The notes beneath the pieces are model-generated. The model was given only the letters and a program-made list of their open reading frames with translations. It made no database searches and was not told where the DNA came from. 64,000 nt of DNA from Thermoanaerobaculia bacterium (GTDB lineage Bacteria; Acidobacteriota; Thermoanaerobaculia; Multivoradales; J023), in the NCBI GenBank assembly GCA_028066595.1, contig JALCBJ010000015.1:1-64000 (forward strand). The letters run 5' to 3'. Made by a program: the position numbers and the translations under genes. Below, piece by piece: positions 12,446-49,034 of the stretch; position 1 is the first letter of the stretch, and each line of letters starts with the position of its first letter.

Positions 12446-15172
12446 CTATTCGGGCCGCAGCGCGACGCAAGGGTCGGTGCGGCTGGCGCGCAGGGCCGGA
12501 GCCAAGGGAGACAGTACTCCAAGAGTCAAGAGCGCGATGGCGGTCGTACCGAGAACCGCCACATCGGCGTGCTGTACCTCGAAGAACAGGCTGCCCGCGA
12601 GGCGCGCCAAACCGAGACCGGCCGTCAGGCCAAGGGCCAAGCCGATCGCGCAGAGCCCCAGCCCCTCGCCGACTACCCGCAGCAGAACCTGATTCGAAGT
12701 TTCGCCGAGAGCCATGCGGATGCCGATCTCGGATCTGCGCACGGTGATCATGAACGACAGCACTCCGTAGAGCCCGAGGCCGGCGAGGACGAACGCTGTG
12801 GCGCTGAAGACCAGGAACCAGACAGCCATCTGACGGGGCAGGGACAGCGAGGCGGCGACGGTGTCGACGAGGTTCGACGGTCGGACGATGGCGACCCGCG
12901 GATTGATCTCGACCAGACGGGAGAGGATCGACGGGGCGATGTCCACCGGCGAGTCTCGGTCGGTCTTGATGACCAGCCGCATCTCGCGCGGTGAGTAATA
13001 GGCGGATTGGTAGGCCTGGGCGTGGGGCACGTACCATTGATTTTTCCCGGCCTGGTCCAAGCGGCCGTCACGTACGTCCTCCACCACGCCCACCACCCGC
13101 AGGAAGGGCGCGTCTTGGGAGAACACGCGGAAGCGCTTGCCGACGGGCTCCTCGCCTTGGAAGAACGACCTGGCGAACGACTCGTTGACGACCGCCACCG
13201 GCTCGGAGTCGACGGTGTCCCCGGCTCCGAGGAGCCGGCCGCGAACGGCACGGATGTCCAGAGCGGCGAACATACCGGGCGTGGCTTGTTGGACCTGGGC
13301 AAAGGGAGCCGAAGCGATGTTCGACACCGGCTGTCCTTCGAATTCGATGGACCAGATGCTGCCAGAGCCGGTCAGGGGCAGCCGCTGCATGGCTCCAGCA
13401 GCAATGACGCCCGGCGTCGTGGCGAGCGCCTGCTCGGCCTGGCGGTAGTAGGTCACGATCTGCTCTGGAGACGGCAGAACCGTCTCCGAGGGCACGACGT
13501 CCAACACCAGGACGCCACGAGCCTCGAACCCGGGGTCGACGTCGAGAATGTTGAGCAGGCTACGTACGGTCATTCCGCATCCGACCAGCAGCACGGCGGC
13601 CAAAGTCATCTGGCTTACGACGAGGGAGGACCGCAACCAGCGAGAGCTGCCCGACGTGCGTCCCAGGGAGGCCACGCGGCCGAGAAGAGCGTCTTGCCGG
13701 GCGAGGCTGCGGAGGGCCGGCCAAAGCCCGAAAACCACGGTGGTCAACGTCGTCACGAGGAGGCAGAAGCCGACCACCCGCAGATCCAAGCTCGGCATTC
13801 CGAAGCGGAGCAGTGCATCCGGCAACATCGGCGGCAAGATGCGAGCGACCCACGCAACGACCGTCAGCGCGCCGACAGCGCCGAGCACCGAGACGACGGC
13901 GGAGTCGATCATCAGTTCCGCTACCAGCCGTCCCCTGGAGGCACCCAATGCGCGGCGCATGGCGAGTTCCCGTTGCCGTGCTGCGCCGCGGCTCAGCTGA
14001 ACGTTGGCCAGGTTGGCGCAGGTGAGAAGGAGCAGCAGGCCGACGGATGCCAGAAGGGCTGTCATCGGCAGACGCACGCCCGCGGTCTGGGCGGTGCGCA
14101 GGAGCTGGGTGCGAGTCGCAAACCCGTGCTCCTCGTAGAACTCGGGGAAGGCCCGGGCCGATTGGTCTGCAAGGAGCCCGACCGCGGTTGCCGCTTGCGA
14201 CACCGTGGTGTCGCCGGAGAGCCGGGCGATGACGTTCAGATAGTGATTGTTACGCCCCCAAAGATCATCGCGGTCGATCGGCAGAGGAACCCAGGCCTCG
14301 AACTGCGCGACGGGAAAGTGGAAGTCGGCGGGCATGACGCCGATCACCTCGGTGGCCTGGTCGTCGAGATAGATCTTCTCGCCCATAATGTCCGGACTCG
14401 AGCCGAAGGCACGCTGCCACAGGCGGTGGCCCAGCACGATCACCGGGTCGGCACCCTCGAGACTCTCACTGGCGTCCGGAAATCTGCCCATGGCCGGCTG
14501 GATTCCCAGCATCGGCAGCATCTCCTCCGTGACGTGAGCGACCTGGATCCGTTGAGGCTCCGGGTCCGACGCAAGCAGGACCATGCCCGAACGCCAGGCG
14601 CCCACCGCGGTGAAGACGTCGAGTGCGCCGAGATCGATGAACTCGGGTTCGGAGCTGCCATACCAGCCGTCCCCGCCCGTGTTGGTTTCGATGCTGACCA
14701 AGCGGTCGGGCTCGGCGAAGTCTGGAGCGCGAAAGAGGATCGAGTCGGCGACCATGAAAACCAGAGTGCAGAGGCCGATGCCCAACACCAGGGTCGCGGT
14801 GACCACCGTGGCAGCCGTCGGTGACCTCGACCAGCGGCGAAGCGAGGTTCTCAGTTCGATGGCCAGAGTGCGGAGAGGTTCCGCGGCACTTGATCTCTTG
14901 GCAGGCATTCGTTTCTCCTGTGAGCTGAGGCGTGGGTGCAGCGGCCGAATCCAACCGTGGCGGACCAGCCCACCGAGCTGTCGCAAACACCAAGACGCGG
15001 TCCGCCGCCGGCCCGTTTCTTCGAGGCGCCGCTGGAATTCTTCGATCAGATCTCCAGCGATGAACTCGCTTTGGTGCGAGGGAATCAGCCGCTCCAGGGC
15101 TCCCGCCAGCCAGTGCCGAAACCGTCTGCCGCTGGGCTGAAGAGAACTGGACTCGCGTCGTTCGTTGCTCAT
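12446..15172 (-). CDS. ADOP-type ABC transporter permease (MacB/FtsX-like)
   Basis: A 908-residue permease of the acidobacterial duplicated orphan permease (ADOP) type: two MacB/FtsX halves fused without an ATPase. Residues 1-90 form the permease-prefix region (ALERLIPSHQSEFIAGDLIEEF) seen in these proteins. A membrane segment near 130 (VTATLVLGIGLCTLVFMVA) is followed by a large periplasmic MacB core domain and three segments around 390-480. A second periplasmic domain then leads to a closing four-segment bundle with the FtsX-type RSEIGIRMALG near 810. The role is probably envelope export or mechanotransmission. It is translationally coupled to the upstream padR gene by an ATGA overlap at 15169-15172, so PadR is its likely regulator. 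Confidence 0.9.
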   Translation of the reverse strand: MSNERRESSSLQPSGRRFRHWLAGALERLIPSHQSEFIAGDLIEEFQRRLEETGRRRTASWCLRQLGGLVRHGWIRPLHPRLSSQEKRMPAKRSSAAEPLRTLAIELRTSLRRWSRSPTAATVVTATLVLGIGLCTLVFMVADSILFRAPDFAEPDRLVSIETNTGGDGWYGSSEPEFIDLGALDVFTAVGAWRSGMVLLASDPEPQRIQVAHVTEEMLPMLGIQPAMGRFPDASESLEGADPVIVLGHRLWQRAFGSSPDIMGEKIYLDDQATEVIGVMPADFHFPVAQFEAWVPLPIDRDDLWGRNNHYLNVIARLSGDTTVSQAATAVGLLADQSARAFPEFYEEHGFATRTQLLRTAQTAGVRLPMTALLASVGLLLLLTCANLANVQLSRGAARQRELAMRRALGASRGRLVAELMIDSAVVSVLGAVGALTVVAWVARILPPMLPDALLRFGMPSLDLRVVGFCLLVTTLTTVVFGLWPALRSLARQDALLGRVASLGRTSGSSRWLRSSLVVSQMTLAAVLLVGCGMTVRSLLNILDVDPGFEARGVLVLDVVPSETVLPSPEQIVTYYRQAEQALATTPGVIAAGAMQRLPLTGSGSIWSIEFEGQPVSNIASAPFAQVQQATPGMFAALDIRAVRGRLLGAGDTVDSEPVAVVNESFARSFFQGEEPVGKRFRVFSQDAPFLRVVGVVEDVRDGRLDQAGKNQWYVPHAQAYQSAYYSPREMRLVIKTDRDSPVDIAPSILSRLVEINPRVAIVRPSNLVDTVAASLSLPRQMAVWFLVFSATAFVLAGLGLYGVLSFMITVRRSEIGIRMALGETSNQVLLRVVGEGLGLCAIGLALGLTAGLGLARLAGSLFFEVQHADVAVLGTTAIALLTLGVLSPLAPALRASRTDPCVALRPE

Positions 15173-42694: not shown

Positions 42695-42731
42695 TGTCCG
42701 ATTCTGGGACGTGGTGTCCCGCTTTCGGACA
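42695..42731. promoter_or_regulatory. Two tandem TGTCC-N7-GGACR dyads
   Basis: Site 1: TGTCC at 42695-42699, seven bases, GGACG at 42707-42711. Site 2: TGTCC at 42715-42719, seven bases, GGACA at 42727-42731. Both span 17 bp and their centres are exactly 20 bp apart, close to two helical turns, as expected for cooperative binding of a dimeric regulator or of a sigma-54 enhancer-binding protein. Site 2 is a full TGTCC/GGACA match; site 1 has one mismatch. They precede the adaptor operon by 220 nt and could also serve the divergent sulfatase-like gene. Confidence 0.6.
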
Positions 42732-42853
42732 CTGAAATGTCGATCTACCCCTGGTTTTCCAACGAATGTTGTAGTTTGGGCCGACTACGCAACCCGGCGC
42801 CGCCGGTGTCGTATCAAGCCGCAGACCGGCCCACCCCTCGGCCTCCCGCCCCC

Positions 42854-42871
42854 CTGCGTTGATCAACGCAG
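42854..42871. promoter_or_regulatory. Perfect 18-bp palindrome in the leader of the adaptor operon
   Basis: CTGCGTTGATCAACGCAG is a perfect inverted repeat with no spacer, 82 nt before the adaptor start codon. It could be an operator for a dimeric repressor or part of the leader RNA. It is distinct from the dyads at 42695-42731. Confidence 0.55.
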
Positions 42872-42953: not shown

Positions 42954-44207
42954 ATGGATGTCGCACGTCCCGATCTGAAACGGAAGAAGCAGCGGAAGCG
43001 CATGATCTTCGGCTCACTGGCCGTTCTTGCGGTCATCGCGATCACAGTCGCCGTGTCCAGTCTGGAACCGGCCGCGCGGGAGGTCGACCGGGCCACGGTT
43101 TGGACGGATACCGTGAAGCGCGGTGAGATGCTGCGCTCCGTGCGCGGCGCCGGCACACTGGTGCCGGAAGAGATTCGTTGGATCGCTGCCGAGACCCAAG
43201 GTCGTGTGGAGCGCATCCTGATCGATCCGGGTGCCACGGTGGAGCCTGAGAGCGTCATTCTCGAGCTATCCGATCCGGACACCGAGCAAGCTGCCGAGGA
43301 CGCGCAACTGGCGCTGGCTTCTGCCGAAGCCAACTACATCGATTTGAAAGTGCGCCTGGAGAGCCAGGTGCTAGATCAGGAGGCCAATCTGGCCCGCGTG
43401 AAGGCCGACTATCAGAGTGCTGTCCTCGACGCCAAGGCGAATCAAGAGCTGTTCGATCATGGACTGATTCCCGACATCGACCTGGAGTCGGCCAAGCTCA
43501 ACGCCGAGCAGCTGACGGTGCGCTACGAGATCGAGCAGAAGCGGATCAAGAAGTTCGCCGAATCTGTGGAAGCTCAGTTGGCCGTCGAGCGCAATCGTGT
43601 CGAGCAGGCCCGGACTCTGGCTACGCTCCGCGGGGCTCGCCTCAAGGCGCTCCAGGTACGCGCCGGCATCCAAGGAGTGGTCCAGCTGGTGCCGGTGGAA
43701 GAAGGCGAGCGCGTGGCCCCGGGTACCAACCTGGCCCGCGTAGCTGACCCCACCGAACTGCGTGCCGACGTTCGGATCGCAGAGACCCAGGCCAAAGACA
43801 TTCAGGTGGGACAGCAGGCCAAGATCGACACCCGCAACGGCATCATCGACGGACACGTGGTACGCATCGATCCGTCCGTACAGCAGGGCACGGTCACGGT
43901 GGAAGTAGCTCTGGACGGAGCGCTACCGAGGGGCGCCCGGCCCGATCTCTCGGTCGATGGCACCATTGAGTTGGAGCGGCTGGTAGACGTGCTCTATGTC
44001 GGTCGTCCGGTCTACGGCCAGCCCAATTCGAAGGTCGGGATGTACAAGATCGGCGCGGACGGCGAGACGGCACAGCTCGTGCAGGTCCACCTCGGACGCA
44101 GTTCCACCACGACCGTCGAGGTCATCGAGGGCCTGCTCGAAGGCGACGAGGTGATCCTCACGGATTCCAGTCAATGGAGCGACGCTGAACGAATTCGCCT
44201 CCGCTGA
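42954..44207 (+). CDS. HlyD/MacA-type periplasmic adaptor protein
   Basis: A 417-residue membrane-fusion protein. A basic tail (KRKKQRKR) precedes one membrane anchor (about 17-36). Next come the barrel-sandwich/lipoyl half (GRVERILIDPGATVEPESVILELSDPD), a long alpha-helical coiled coil (about 110-225, rich in Glu, Ala and Arg), the second lipoyl half (RAGIQGVVQLVPVEEGERVAPGTNLARV), a beta-barrel and a membrane-proximal domain. It should bridge an inner-membrane ABC transporter and an outer-membrane channel. AGGAGA precedes the ATG by six bases. Two ATPase genes follow on the same strand, but no permease. Confidence 0.92.
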   Translation: MDVARPDLKRKKQRKRMIFGSLAVLAVIAITVAVSSLEPAAREVDRATVWTDTVKRGEMLRSVRGAGTLVPEEIRWIAAETQGRVERILIDPGATVEPESVILELSDPDTEQAAEDAQLALASAEANYIDLKVRLESQVLDQEANLARVKADYQSAVLDAKANQELFDHGLIPDIDLESAKLNAEQLTVRYEIEQKRIKKFAESVEAQLAVERNRVEQARTLATLRGARLKALQVRAGIQGVVQLVPVEEGERVAPGTNLARVADPTELRADVRIAETQAKDIQVGQQAKIDTRNGIIDGHVVRIDPSVQQGTVTVEVALDGALPRGARPDLSVDGTIELERLVDVLYVGRPVYGQPNSKVGMYKIGADGETAQLVQVHLGRSSTTTVEVIEGLLEGDEVILTDSSQWSDAERIRLR

Positions 44208-44332: not shown

Positions 44333-45034
44333 ATGAGCGACAAATCGTTGATTCACCTGGAAGGCGTGACCAAGGTCTTCTATACCGAGGACGTGGAGAC
44401 CCACGCCCTGTCGGGCATTCACCTCGACATCTTCCCGGGCGAGTATGTTTCGATTTCGGGACCGTCCGGCTGTGGCAAGTCGACGCTGCTGTCGATCCTC
44501 GGTCTGCTCGACACGCCCACCGAGGGAACCTACGTACTCAACGAGCAGCTGGTGACCAACCTCAGCCTTTCGGACCGCGCGCGAATCCGCAACCGGGAGA
44601 TCGGCTTCATCTTCCAGGCGTTCAACCTGATCGGCGATCTCACCGTGTACGAGAACGTCGAGCTACCCCTTACCTACCGCGGCACGCCGTCTGCGGAGCG
44701 TAAGAAGAAGGTCCAGAACGCGCTCGAGCGTGTCGGAATGGCACATCGTATGAAGCACTATCCTGCGCAGCTCTCCGGTGGTCAGCAGCAGCGTGTGGCC
44801 GTGGCCCGCGCCGTCGTCGGTGATCCGTCGATCCTGCTCGCTGACGAGCCGACCGGTAATCTCGACTCGTCGAACGGCGAGGCAGTGATGAACCTTCTGG
44901 AAGAGCTGCACGAGGCCGGTTCCACGATCTGCATGGTGACGCACGACCCGCGGTACGCCCGCCACGCCGAGCGCAGCATCCAGCTCTTCGATGGTCGCGT
45001 CGTCGAGGAGAAGGACGCCGTCGCCACGGCCTGA
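44333..45034 (+). CDS. MacB/LolD-type ABC transporter ATPase, first copy
   Basis: A 233-residue ATPase. Walker A is GPSGCGKSTLLSILGLLDTP, Q-loop FIFQAFNLIGDLT, signature LSGGQQQRVAVARAVVG, Walker B SILLADEPTGNLDSSNG, and H-loop MVTHDPRYARHA. These match the MacB/LolD group, which powers FtsX/MacB-type permeases. No permease domain is fused and none is encoded in this operon. Likely partner permeases are ADOP-like proteins elsewhere; the ADOP at 12446 is one candidate but nothing links them. Confidence 0.93.
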   Translation: MSDKSLIHLEGVTKVFYTEDVETHALSGIHLDIFPGEYVSISGPSGCGKSTLLSILGLLDTPTEGTYVLNEQLVTNLSLSDRARIRNREIGFIFQAFNLIGDLTVYENVELPLTYRGTPSAERKKKVQNALERVGMAHRMKHYPAQLSGGQQQRVAVARAVVGDPSILLADEPTGNLDSSNGEAVMNLLEELHEAGSTICMVTHDPRYARHAERSIQLFDGRVVEEKDAVATA

Positions 45035-45248: not shown

Positions 45249-45929
45249 ATGCCGCTGATCCGAACCCGCAATCTCGAGAAGTTCTTCGAGACCGGCTACG
45301 GCCGCACCTACGTTCTTCGCCGCATCGATCTCGACATCGAGCCTGGCGAGTTCGTCACCATCATGGGCCCGTCGGGTGCCGGGAAATCGACTCTGCTACA
45401 CATCCTCGGCATGCTCGACGGTGCGTGGAACGGAGACTACGAGTTCGACGGCCATCCCGTGCATCGGATGAAGCCCAAGCAGCGTAACGAGCTGCACAAA
45501 CAGAACATCGGGTTTGTCTTCCAGAGCTACCATTTGCTCGATGACCTGACGGTCTACGAGAATCTGGAAGTGCCGTTGTCGTATCGAAAGATCAAGCGAG
45601 CCGAGCGGCAATCGATGGTCGCCGATATCCTGGATCGTTTTCAGATCGTGGGCAAGAAAGATCTTTTCCCGAACCAACTTTCCGGAGGCCAGCAGCAGCT
45701 GGTGGGCGTGGCTCGCGCGGTGATCATGAACCCGAAGGTCATCTTCGCCGACGAGCCGACCGGCAACCTGCACACTGCCCAGGCGGACGAGATCATGGAG
45801 CTCTTCCAGCAACTCAACGGGGAAGGCACCACGATCGTGCAGGTCACGCACTCCGAGCGCAACGCGGAGTACGGCAAGCGGATCATCCATCTCAAGGACG
45901 GATGGCTGGACCGCGACGACACGGCCTGA
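45249..45929 (+). CDS. MacB/LolD-type ABC transporter ATPase, second copy
   Basis: A 226-residue ATPase similar in plan to the previous one. Walker A GPSGAGKSTLLHILGMLDG, Q-loop FVFQSYHLLDDLT, signature LSGGQQQLVGVARAV, Walker B VIFADEPTGNLHTAQ, H-loop QVTHSERNAEYG. The signature has Leu where the usual R follows LSGGQQQ, and the D-loop region is H-T-A rather than the usual D-S. AGGAG precedes the ATG by six bases. It could form a heterodimer with the first ATPase, but it may also serve a different permease. Confidence 0.92.
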   Translation: MPLIRTRNLEKFFETGYGRTYVLRRIDLDIEPGEFVTIMGPSGAGKSTLLHILGMLDGAWNGDYEFDGHPVHRMKPKQRNELHKQNIGFVFQSYHLLDDLTVYENLEVPLSYRKIKRAERQSMVADILDRFQIVGKKDLFPNQLSGGQQQLVGVARAVIMNPKVIFADEPTGNLHTAQADEIMELFQQLNGEGTTIVQVTHSERNAEYGKRIIHLKDGWLDRDDTA

Positions 45930-47738: not shown

Positions 47739-49034
47739 TCAGGCTGCCGGTTCGGGGGAGGGTTCCAGGCGTTGGTCCGCATACTCCGAGCGGTGGACGC
47801 CCAGAGCCCGGATTCGCTGGGCCACCGGAGGGTGGGAGTAGTAGAGCGCTGCGTAGAGGGGATGGGGGCTCGGGTTGGTGAGGTTGTCGGCGGCGAGCCG
47901 GCGAAGCGCTCGCGCCATTCCACCCGCTTCCGCGGTGTCGGCGGCAAAGCGATCGGCTTGGAACTCGAACCTACGCTGCATCGCCAAGATGAACAGCGAC
48001 AACACCATTTCGAGGGGGGTATAGAGCAGGCCGAAGAAGACGAGCCCGGCGTGCACCGACATCTGCTCCATGGAGAATGCTTCGAACAAACCGTGCTGCT
48101 GGAGAAAGAATCCCAGCAGGAAGAAGAGCACACCGGTGTGTAGCAGGCTCACCACCGTCATCAGCGGGATGTGCCGCCTTCGATAGTGACCTACCTCATG
48201 GGCCAGGACGGCCACCAGCTCGTCCTCCGGGTGTTTTTCGATCAGGGTGTCGAAGAGGGCGATGCGTTTGGTCTTGCCGAAGCCGGTGAAGAAAGCATTG
48301 GAACGCGTCGACCGGCGCGATCCGTCGATGACGAAAATGCCGTCGAGCCCGAAGCCGACTTTGCGTGCGTAGTCCTCCAATGCCTGCCGGACGCTGCCCT
48401 GGTCGAGTGGAGTGAACCGATAGAAGAACGGCAGGATCCAGGTAGGTAAGACGACTTGCACCAACAACGTGACCGCCGCAACCAGTAGCCAGCTCCACAG
48501 CCAGGCGTTCTCCACACGTTGGAAGAAAACCAGGATCGCAGCTACCACCGGTCCGCCGAGCGCGGCTCCGAGAGCCAGACTCTTCACGAGATCGAGAACG
48601 AAGGTCTTCGGTGTAGTGCGATTGAAGCCGTAACGTTCCTCGATGACGAACGTCGACCAGATGGAGAATGGCAGGTCCACGGCCGCCTTGCCCACGACCA
48701 GCGCCCCGATGAACAGGAGGCCCGTCCACAGCTCGGACAGATCGAAACCACGGAGCCAGCGGTCGAGAACGTCGAATCCACCCAGCCACCAGAATGCGAG
48801 GAGCGCCGCCAGGTCGAAGGTCGAGGTCCAGAATCCGAAGCGGCTGCGCTCACGGGTGTACTCCTGTGAGCGGCGAAAGCGTGTTTCGTCGTAGACACCT
48901 TCCAGCTCCGGTGGCGGCACAGAACGCAGCGCGTTGAGGTTGAGGATGGTGGCGATGCGGCCCAGCGCCCAGGACACGAGGAGCGCGGCCAGGATCACCG
49001 CTGAGTAGAGGTTCAGCGATGGCGGATCGATCAC
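47739..49034 (-). CDS. M48 family (Ste24/CAAX-protease-like) metallopeptidase
   Basis: A 431-residue integral membrane zinc protease. Five to seven membrane segments surround the catalytic part, where HEVGHYRRRH holds the zinc ligands and Glu, and EFQADRFA the third ligand. GSRRSTRSNAFFTGFGKTKRIALFDTL is the Ste24 signature. In bacteria such proteins are quality-control or lipoprotein-related proteases. It is translationally coupled to the DUF4340 gene by an ATGA overlap at 49031-49034. The coupling of a Ste24-type protease with a gliding-type ABC system and SfsA looks stable here, but the reason is unknown. Confidence 0.92.
   Translation of the reverse strand: MIDPPSLNLYSAVILAALLVSWALGRIATILNLNALRSVPPPELEGVYDETRFRRSQEYTRERSRFGFWTSTFDLAALLAFWWLGGFDVLDRWLRGFDLSELWTGLLFIGALVVGKAAVDLPFSIWSTFVIEERYGFNRTTPKTFVLDLVKSLALGAALGGPVVAAILVFFQRVENAWLWSWLLVAAVTLLVQVVLPTWILPFFYRFTPLDQGSVRQALEDYARKVGFGLDGIFVIDGSRRSTRSNAFFTGFGKTKRIALFDTLIEKHPEDELVAVLAHEVGHYRRRHIPLMTVVSLLHTGVLFFLLGFFLQQHGLFEAFSMEQMSVHAGLVFFGLLYTPLEMVLSLFILAMQRRFEFQADRFAADTAEAGGMARALRRLAADNLTNPSPHPLYAALYYSHPPVAQRIRALGVHRSEYADQRLEPSPEPAA

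Follow-up and report, generated by a model that had tools for sequence, protein, structure and literature searches.

An inverted two-dyad array precedes a permease-less adaptor/ATPase operon

The window (the whole 64-kb stretch of DNA that was analysed) contains an operon encoding a HlyD/MacA-type periplasmic adaptor and two ABC ATPases, preceded by a 37-bp array of two 17-bp dyads with a start-to-start distance of 20 bp (Table 1). The operon resembles tripartite ABC exporters of the MacAB/DarBCD type in having a HlyD adaptor and MacB/DarD-type ATPases, but differs from them in that its matches lie below the family cut-offs and that it carries two ATPase genes and no permease gene. The stretch from the array to the HlyD start contains a perfect 18-bp palindrome, absent from the same-genus genome G001, which is possibly a second operator.

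Table 1 Positions of the array, the operon and other features in the window
Feature	Position	Strand	Basis or remark
ADOP orphan permease	12446–15172	−	
37-bp inverted two-dyad array, putative enhancer (UAS), TGTCCGATTCTGGGACGTGGTGTCCCGCTTTCGGACA	42695–42731	.	Ortholog conservation and matrix score
Dyad 1, TGTCC-N7-GGACG	42695–42711	+	Pattern match in window
Dyad 2, TGTCC-N7-GGACA; orientation opposite to dyad 1 in the ortholog consensus	42715–42731	−	Pattern and ortholog consensus
Sole −24/−12-like candidate, TGGGCCGACTACGCA	42777–42791	+	GG-N9-GC spacing, score at background
Perfect 18-bp palindrome, CTGCGTTGATCAACGCAG	42854–42871		
HlyD/MacA-type periplasmic adaptor, first gene of operon	42954–44207	+	Pfam HlyD_3, HlyD_D23; NCBIfam RND_mfp, DarC below cut-off
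ABC ATPase 1 (MacB/LolD/DarD type)	44333–45034	+	Pfam ABC_tran; NCBIfam
ABC ATPase 2	45249–45929	+	Pfam ABC_tran; gene order in relatives

An earlier, sequence-only reading had described the array as two tandem TGTCC-N7-GGACR dyads 20 bp apart. Both dyads match that pattern exactly, but the symmetry kept across genomes is inverted rather than directly tandem: the left half, TGTcCGnTtctGGGA, and the right half, reverse-complemented as tGTnCGntngcGGGA, are inverted copies of TGTcCGnTtytGGGA, and the most strongly conserved ortholog alignment columns are TGTcCG, GGGA and their mirror images. An inverted array, TGTCCGattctGGGAc-n5-gTCCCgctttCGGACA, is thus a better description of the pair than identical tandem dyads.

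In the window, the single-dyad pattern TGTCC-N7-GGACR gave four strand matches against 0.46 expected, a number reached by none of 100 shuffles, with a third matching place at 48723 inside a coding gene. Genome-wide, single dyads were close to chance (24 + 22 matches versus 17 + 14 for a reversed control pattern) and are therefore uninformative; the pair is the unit that matters. A genome scan for TGTCC-N7-GGACA, which the sequence-only reading had proposed, accordingly looks for the wrong unit and stays near random, whereas the expectation of conservation upstream of orthologous operons was borne out for the pair. With a half-site matrix whose training set consisted of orthologs alone and excluded the window, the window array reached a score of 37.0, compared with a maximum of 11.9 in a background of 400 kb sampled from the same genome; as a unit, the 37-bp pair is far from chance. 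Degenerate tandem patterns were also tried as the unit, with genome counts not clearly exceeding those of reversed controls, and a covariance model of the array that used sequence alone proved too insensitive for diverged copies, for which the half-site matrix worked better.

Arrays of the strict form number about one to a few per genome, so the array is not a repeat, and no DNA repeat of the region was found in the genome. Chance occurrence or a dispersed repeat, for which the near-random frequency of single dyads might speak, is refuted by the conserved position of the array upstream of orthologs and has a negligible probability.

The array is conserved and coupled to −24/−12 promoters in orthologs

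Of 58 related genomes, 18 have an array of 37 or 38 bp ahead of their HlyD ortholog, and such an array is also found upstream of HlyD in more distant Acidobacteriota. The spacing is mostly 38 bp in orthologs and 37 bp in the window's genome, and ortholog arrays are found 120–300 bp upstream of the start codon (for example, TGTCCGCTTCTGGGACGGCAGCATCCCGCGAGCGGACA). In Opitutae the array is diverged (nTCCCATTTTTGGGACG-n5-ATCCCGnnTTCG, ~112 bp before the −24/−12 site); HlyD operons of this group (L133, L161, L170, L191 and others) have a TCCCATTTTTGGGACG-type diverged array at about −150. Upstream of the same adaptor gene in L162 (Rhodanobacteraceae) and L186 (Acidobacteria) there is instead a compact 16-bp palindrome (TGTCCGGAACCGGACA and TGTCCGATTCCGGACA), which suggests a related but shorter site. 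HlyD orthologs ~53% identical at loci of family f4, genus g7 (for example, L217), are without the array, and most of these genomes are without the A3 regulator described below, so that control of the HlyD operon differs within the order.

Downstream of the array, nearly all orthologs have a canonical −24/−12 site, mostly TGGCAYG-N4-YTGC, as scored with a matrix hand-set from the consensus; examples are TGGCATG-GCTC-TTGC (G010), TGGCACG-GGCT-TTGC (G004) and TGGCATG-AACC-TTGC (G005). Distances from the array centre to TGG cluster at about 68–70, 81–83, 90–95, 104–105, 126–127 and 138–141 bp, in steps of about 11–12 bp, close to one helical turn. A null model of random positions was rejected, with many of the values related by descent and shared ancestry uncorrected; we take this phasing as supportive of, and not as proof for, a sigma-54 enhancer.

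The promoter positions also bear on whether the array could be an RNA hairpin, either a terminator or a 5′-UTR structure. The array does fold, at −21.6 kcal/mol (z = −3.6). It has, however, no T tail, and ortholog arrays lie upstream of the −24/−12 element and hence outside the transcript. Compensatory pairing of the arms was likewise not found: variable arm positions are mostly unpaired (columns 9, 11 and 12 broken in 8, 6 and 15 of 21), with modest covariation. We consider an RNA structure very unlikely.

An NtrC-type regulator accompanies the array in relatives

Linked to the array in several groups is a gene for an NtrC-type response regulator, here A3, with Response_reg, Sigma54_activat and HTH_8 domains, a receiver signature LNYTRDTTSG and a GAFTDA loop. 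GAFTDA is among the GAFTGA variants described as retaining activator function (PMC4641369). The gene order of the operon in families f5, f6, f7 and f8, as well as other Acidobacteriota, is HlyD, ATPase, in some cases a second ATPase, and A3 as the last gene; in Opitutae, A3 is encoded 1.4–4 kb upstream of the HlyD operon on the same strand. The A3 ortholog group was cleanly separated in a search of 59 genomes (E at most about 1e-227, next 1e-153). Array and A3 occurred together in 15 genomes and were both missing from 38, with the array only in three and A3 only in two (Fisher p = 3e-9, with no correction for phylogeny). Completeness is 82–86% for two of the three array-only genomes; in one A3-only genome, G052, HlyD is at a contig edge and the upstream sequence is too short to show an array, and the other, G041, has a divergent HlyD (41% identity).

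The sequence-only reading had noted that no regulator gene is close to the array, and in the window this holds. Nor was an A3 gene found in the window's metagenome-assembled genome (MAG; 95.4% complete), although it is present in the same-genus G001 and in G002–G005. One neighbour of A3 in G001, the single one tested, was also not found in the window's MAG, so both may belong to an unassembled stretch; either loss of A3 or a gap in the assembly would fit its absence. The first regulator candidates, chosen by neighbourhood, were dropped once the A3 family emerged: an FHA-type activator (G003), a large activator (G003/G006) and a chromosomal neighbour (L202).

Array and sigma-54 sites precede some ADOP permease genes

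The window's genome has 67 matches to the ADOP family (Acidobacterial duplicated orphan permeases, TIGR03434). Among 65 ADOP genes examined, four have a 37-bp array upstream, at −160 to −179, with scores of 14.7–25.7 (against the same background maximum), and in all four the array is followed by a −24/−12 site at −64 to −77 scoring 14.1–15.1 (TGGTACGTGTTTTGC, TGGAACGAACCTTGC, TGGTACGAGCCTTGC and CGGCACGTGCCTTGC). ADOP genes in G001, G003, G006 and G052 likewise have an array and a −24/−12 site, weaker in G001. These pairs tie the array to sigma-54 in the window's own genome, despite the promoterless-looking operon in the window. The ADOP permease gene within the window has no array upstream.

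To our knowledge, and by the family's own description, ADOP permeases are orphans without ATPase partners. In contrast to that description, some ADOP genes here have a predicted enhancer and a promoter type in common with a permease-less adaptor/ATPase operon.

The window operon is without a canonical −24/−12 site

At the window locus, the paired dyad-symmetric sites that a sigma-54 enhancer (UAS) requires are present, and the genome encodes rpoN (one Sigma54_DBD match, E 5.8e-67). GG-N10-GC is absent throughout the 222 nt that separate the array from the HlyD start, and within 4 kb no sigma-54 site scored above background. The sole candidate, with its GG-N9-GC spacing and background score (Table 1), is probably not a working sigma-54 promoter, in agreement with the sequence-only reading, which had seen only an imperfect candidate here. 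G001 and G002, the nearest two array-bearing relatives, also have no credible −24/−12 site, and a sigma-70-like promoter was not found at the window locus either. The array in the window's genus would then be an enhancer of the HlyD operon, the core promoter having diverged or given way to another.

A serious rival, which we hold possible but do not favour, is that sigma-54 control has been lost: A3 would still bind the array in the window's genus, while the HlyD operon has lost its sigma-54 core promoter and is read from a different one, leaving the array as a relic or in another role (repressor site or regulator sink). It partly overlaps our preferred reading of the array as an A3 enhancer because the same regulator would still bind the array. 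The absence of a canonical −24/−12 site in the window, G001 and G002 fits such a loss, and the 18-bp palindrome close to the gene might be an operator of more recent origin. Against it, no sigma-70-like promoter has taken the place of the missing site as far as the search at the locus could detect, and the array scores near consensus in the window's genome (G000), G001 and G002 (37.0, 37.1 and 37.1) while the sequence around it has almost completely diverged between G000 and G001, which argues that selection still acts on the array.

The missing site would equally suit a regulator unrelated to sigma-54 (TetR, GntR or similar) that uses the array as an ordinary operator, and the size of the dyads is right for many dimeric repressors. 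The tight coupling of the array, in many genomes, to −24/−12 promoters and to an NtrC-type gene makes this improbable.

A predicted sigma-54 regulon would join adaptor, ATPases and orphan permeases

We therefore return to the reading that we consider likely on the comparative sequence evidence: that the array is an enhancer (UAS) for an A3-family NtrC-type regulator, and that a sigma-54 regulon joins the adaptor/ATPase module and orphan permeases. The suggestion of the sequence-only reading that a cooperative regulator, possibly a sigma-54 enhancer-binding protein, acts here is strongly supported by ortholog conservation, by the coupled −24/−12 promoters in relatives and in the same genome and by the operon-encoded NtrC-type regulator in related families. 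Two dimers of A3, a protein with a receiver, an AAA+ sigma-54 activator domain and a Fis-type HTH, would occupy the two inverted dyads, which lie about two turns of the helix apart, and build an oligomer that touches sigma-54 RNA polymerase by DNA looping; this contact would switch on the HlyD adaptor/ABC ATPase operon. The same regulator may co-induce ADOP orphan FtsX-type permeases (4/65), giving a tripartite exporter with shared adaptor and ATPases. From what was computed (the array, its conservation, its −24/−12 coupling at orthologs and at the genome's own ADOP genes, regulator linkage and co-occurrence, and rpoN), we infer that A3 is the protein that recognises the array, that its binding has an activating effect, and that the permeases form a complex with the adaptor and the ATPases.

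More tentatively, one sigma-54 activator might coordinate a permease-less adaptor/ATPase operon with selected ADOP members, meaning that a shared ATPase/adaptor set energises interchangeable permeases, and one genus might keep the enhancer under selection without a canonical −24/−12 core; we regard this combination as doubtful, if conceivable.

Enhancers of this kind are already known. The array is like NtrC-family enhancer sites in its paired dyads, in its distance and stepped spacing to −24/−12, and in the linkage of an AAA+ response regulator to the target operon; it differs from them in the missing −24/−12 element in the window. No description of the TGTCCG...GGGA site, of its family of regulators or of a link to, or regulation of, ADOP genes was found in the literature searched (open-licence papers).

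In Acidobacteriota, the ADOP permeases make up very large families for which no ATPase partner has been assigned. The shared enhancer and type of promoter point to a candidate partner module and regulator for some of them, so that the powering and control of orphan permeases become testable. The array is a predicted binding site for a family of regulators that occurs in both Acidobacteriota and Verrucomicrobiota, and its sharing suggests which permeases and ATPases work together.

A further sigma-54 activator of the window's genome, L088 on contig C195, was considered as an A3 ortholog; being ~50% identical over the AAA+/HTH part, with a GAFTGA loop and its own ABC/FtsX cluster, it was taken as a paralog of A3. 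On the same contig (L389:4615-10650) are encoded an ABC ATPase, two FtsX-type permeases, a sigma-54 activator (containing an assembly gap) and a probable histidine kinase; together they resemble a complete regulated exporter in its own right, paralogous to the adaptor/ATPase system.
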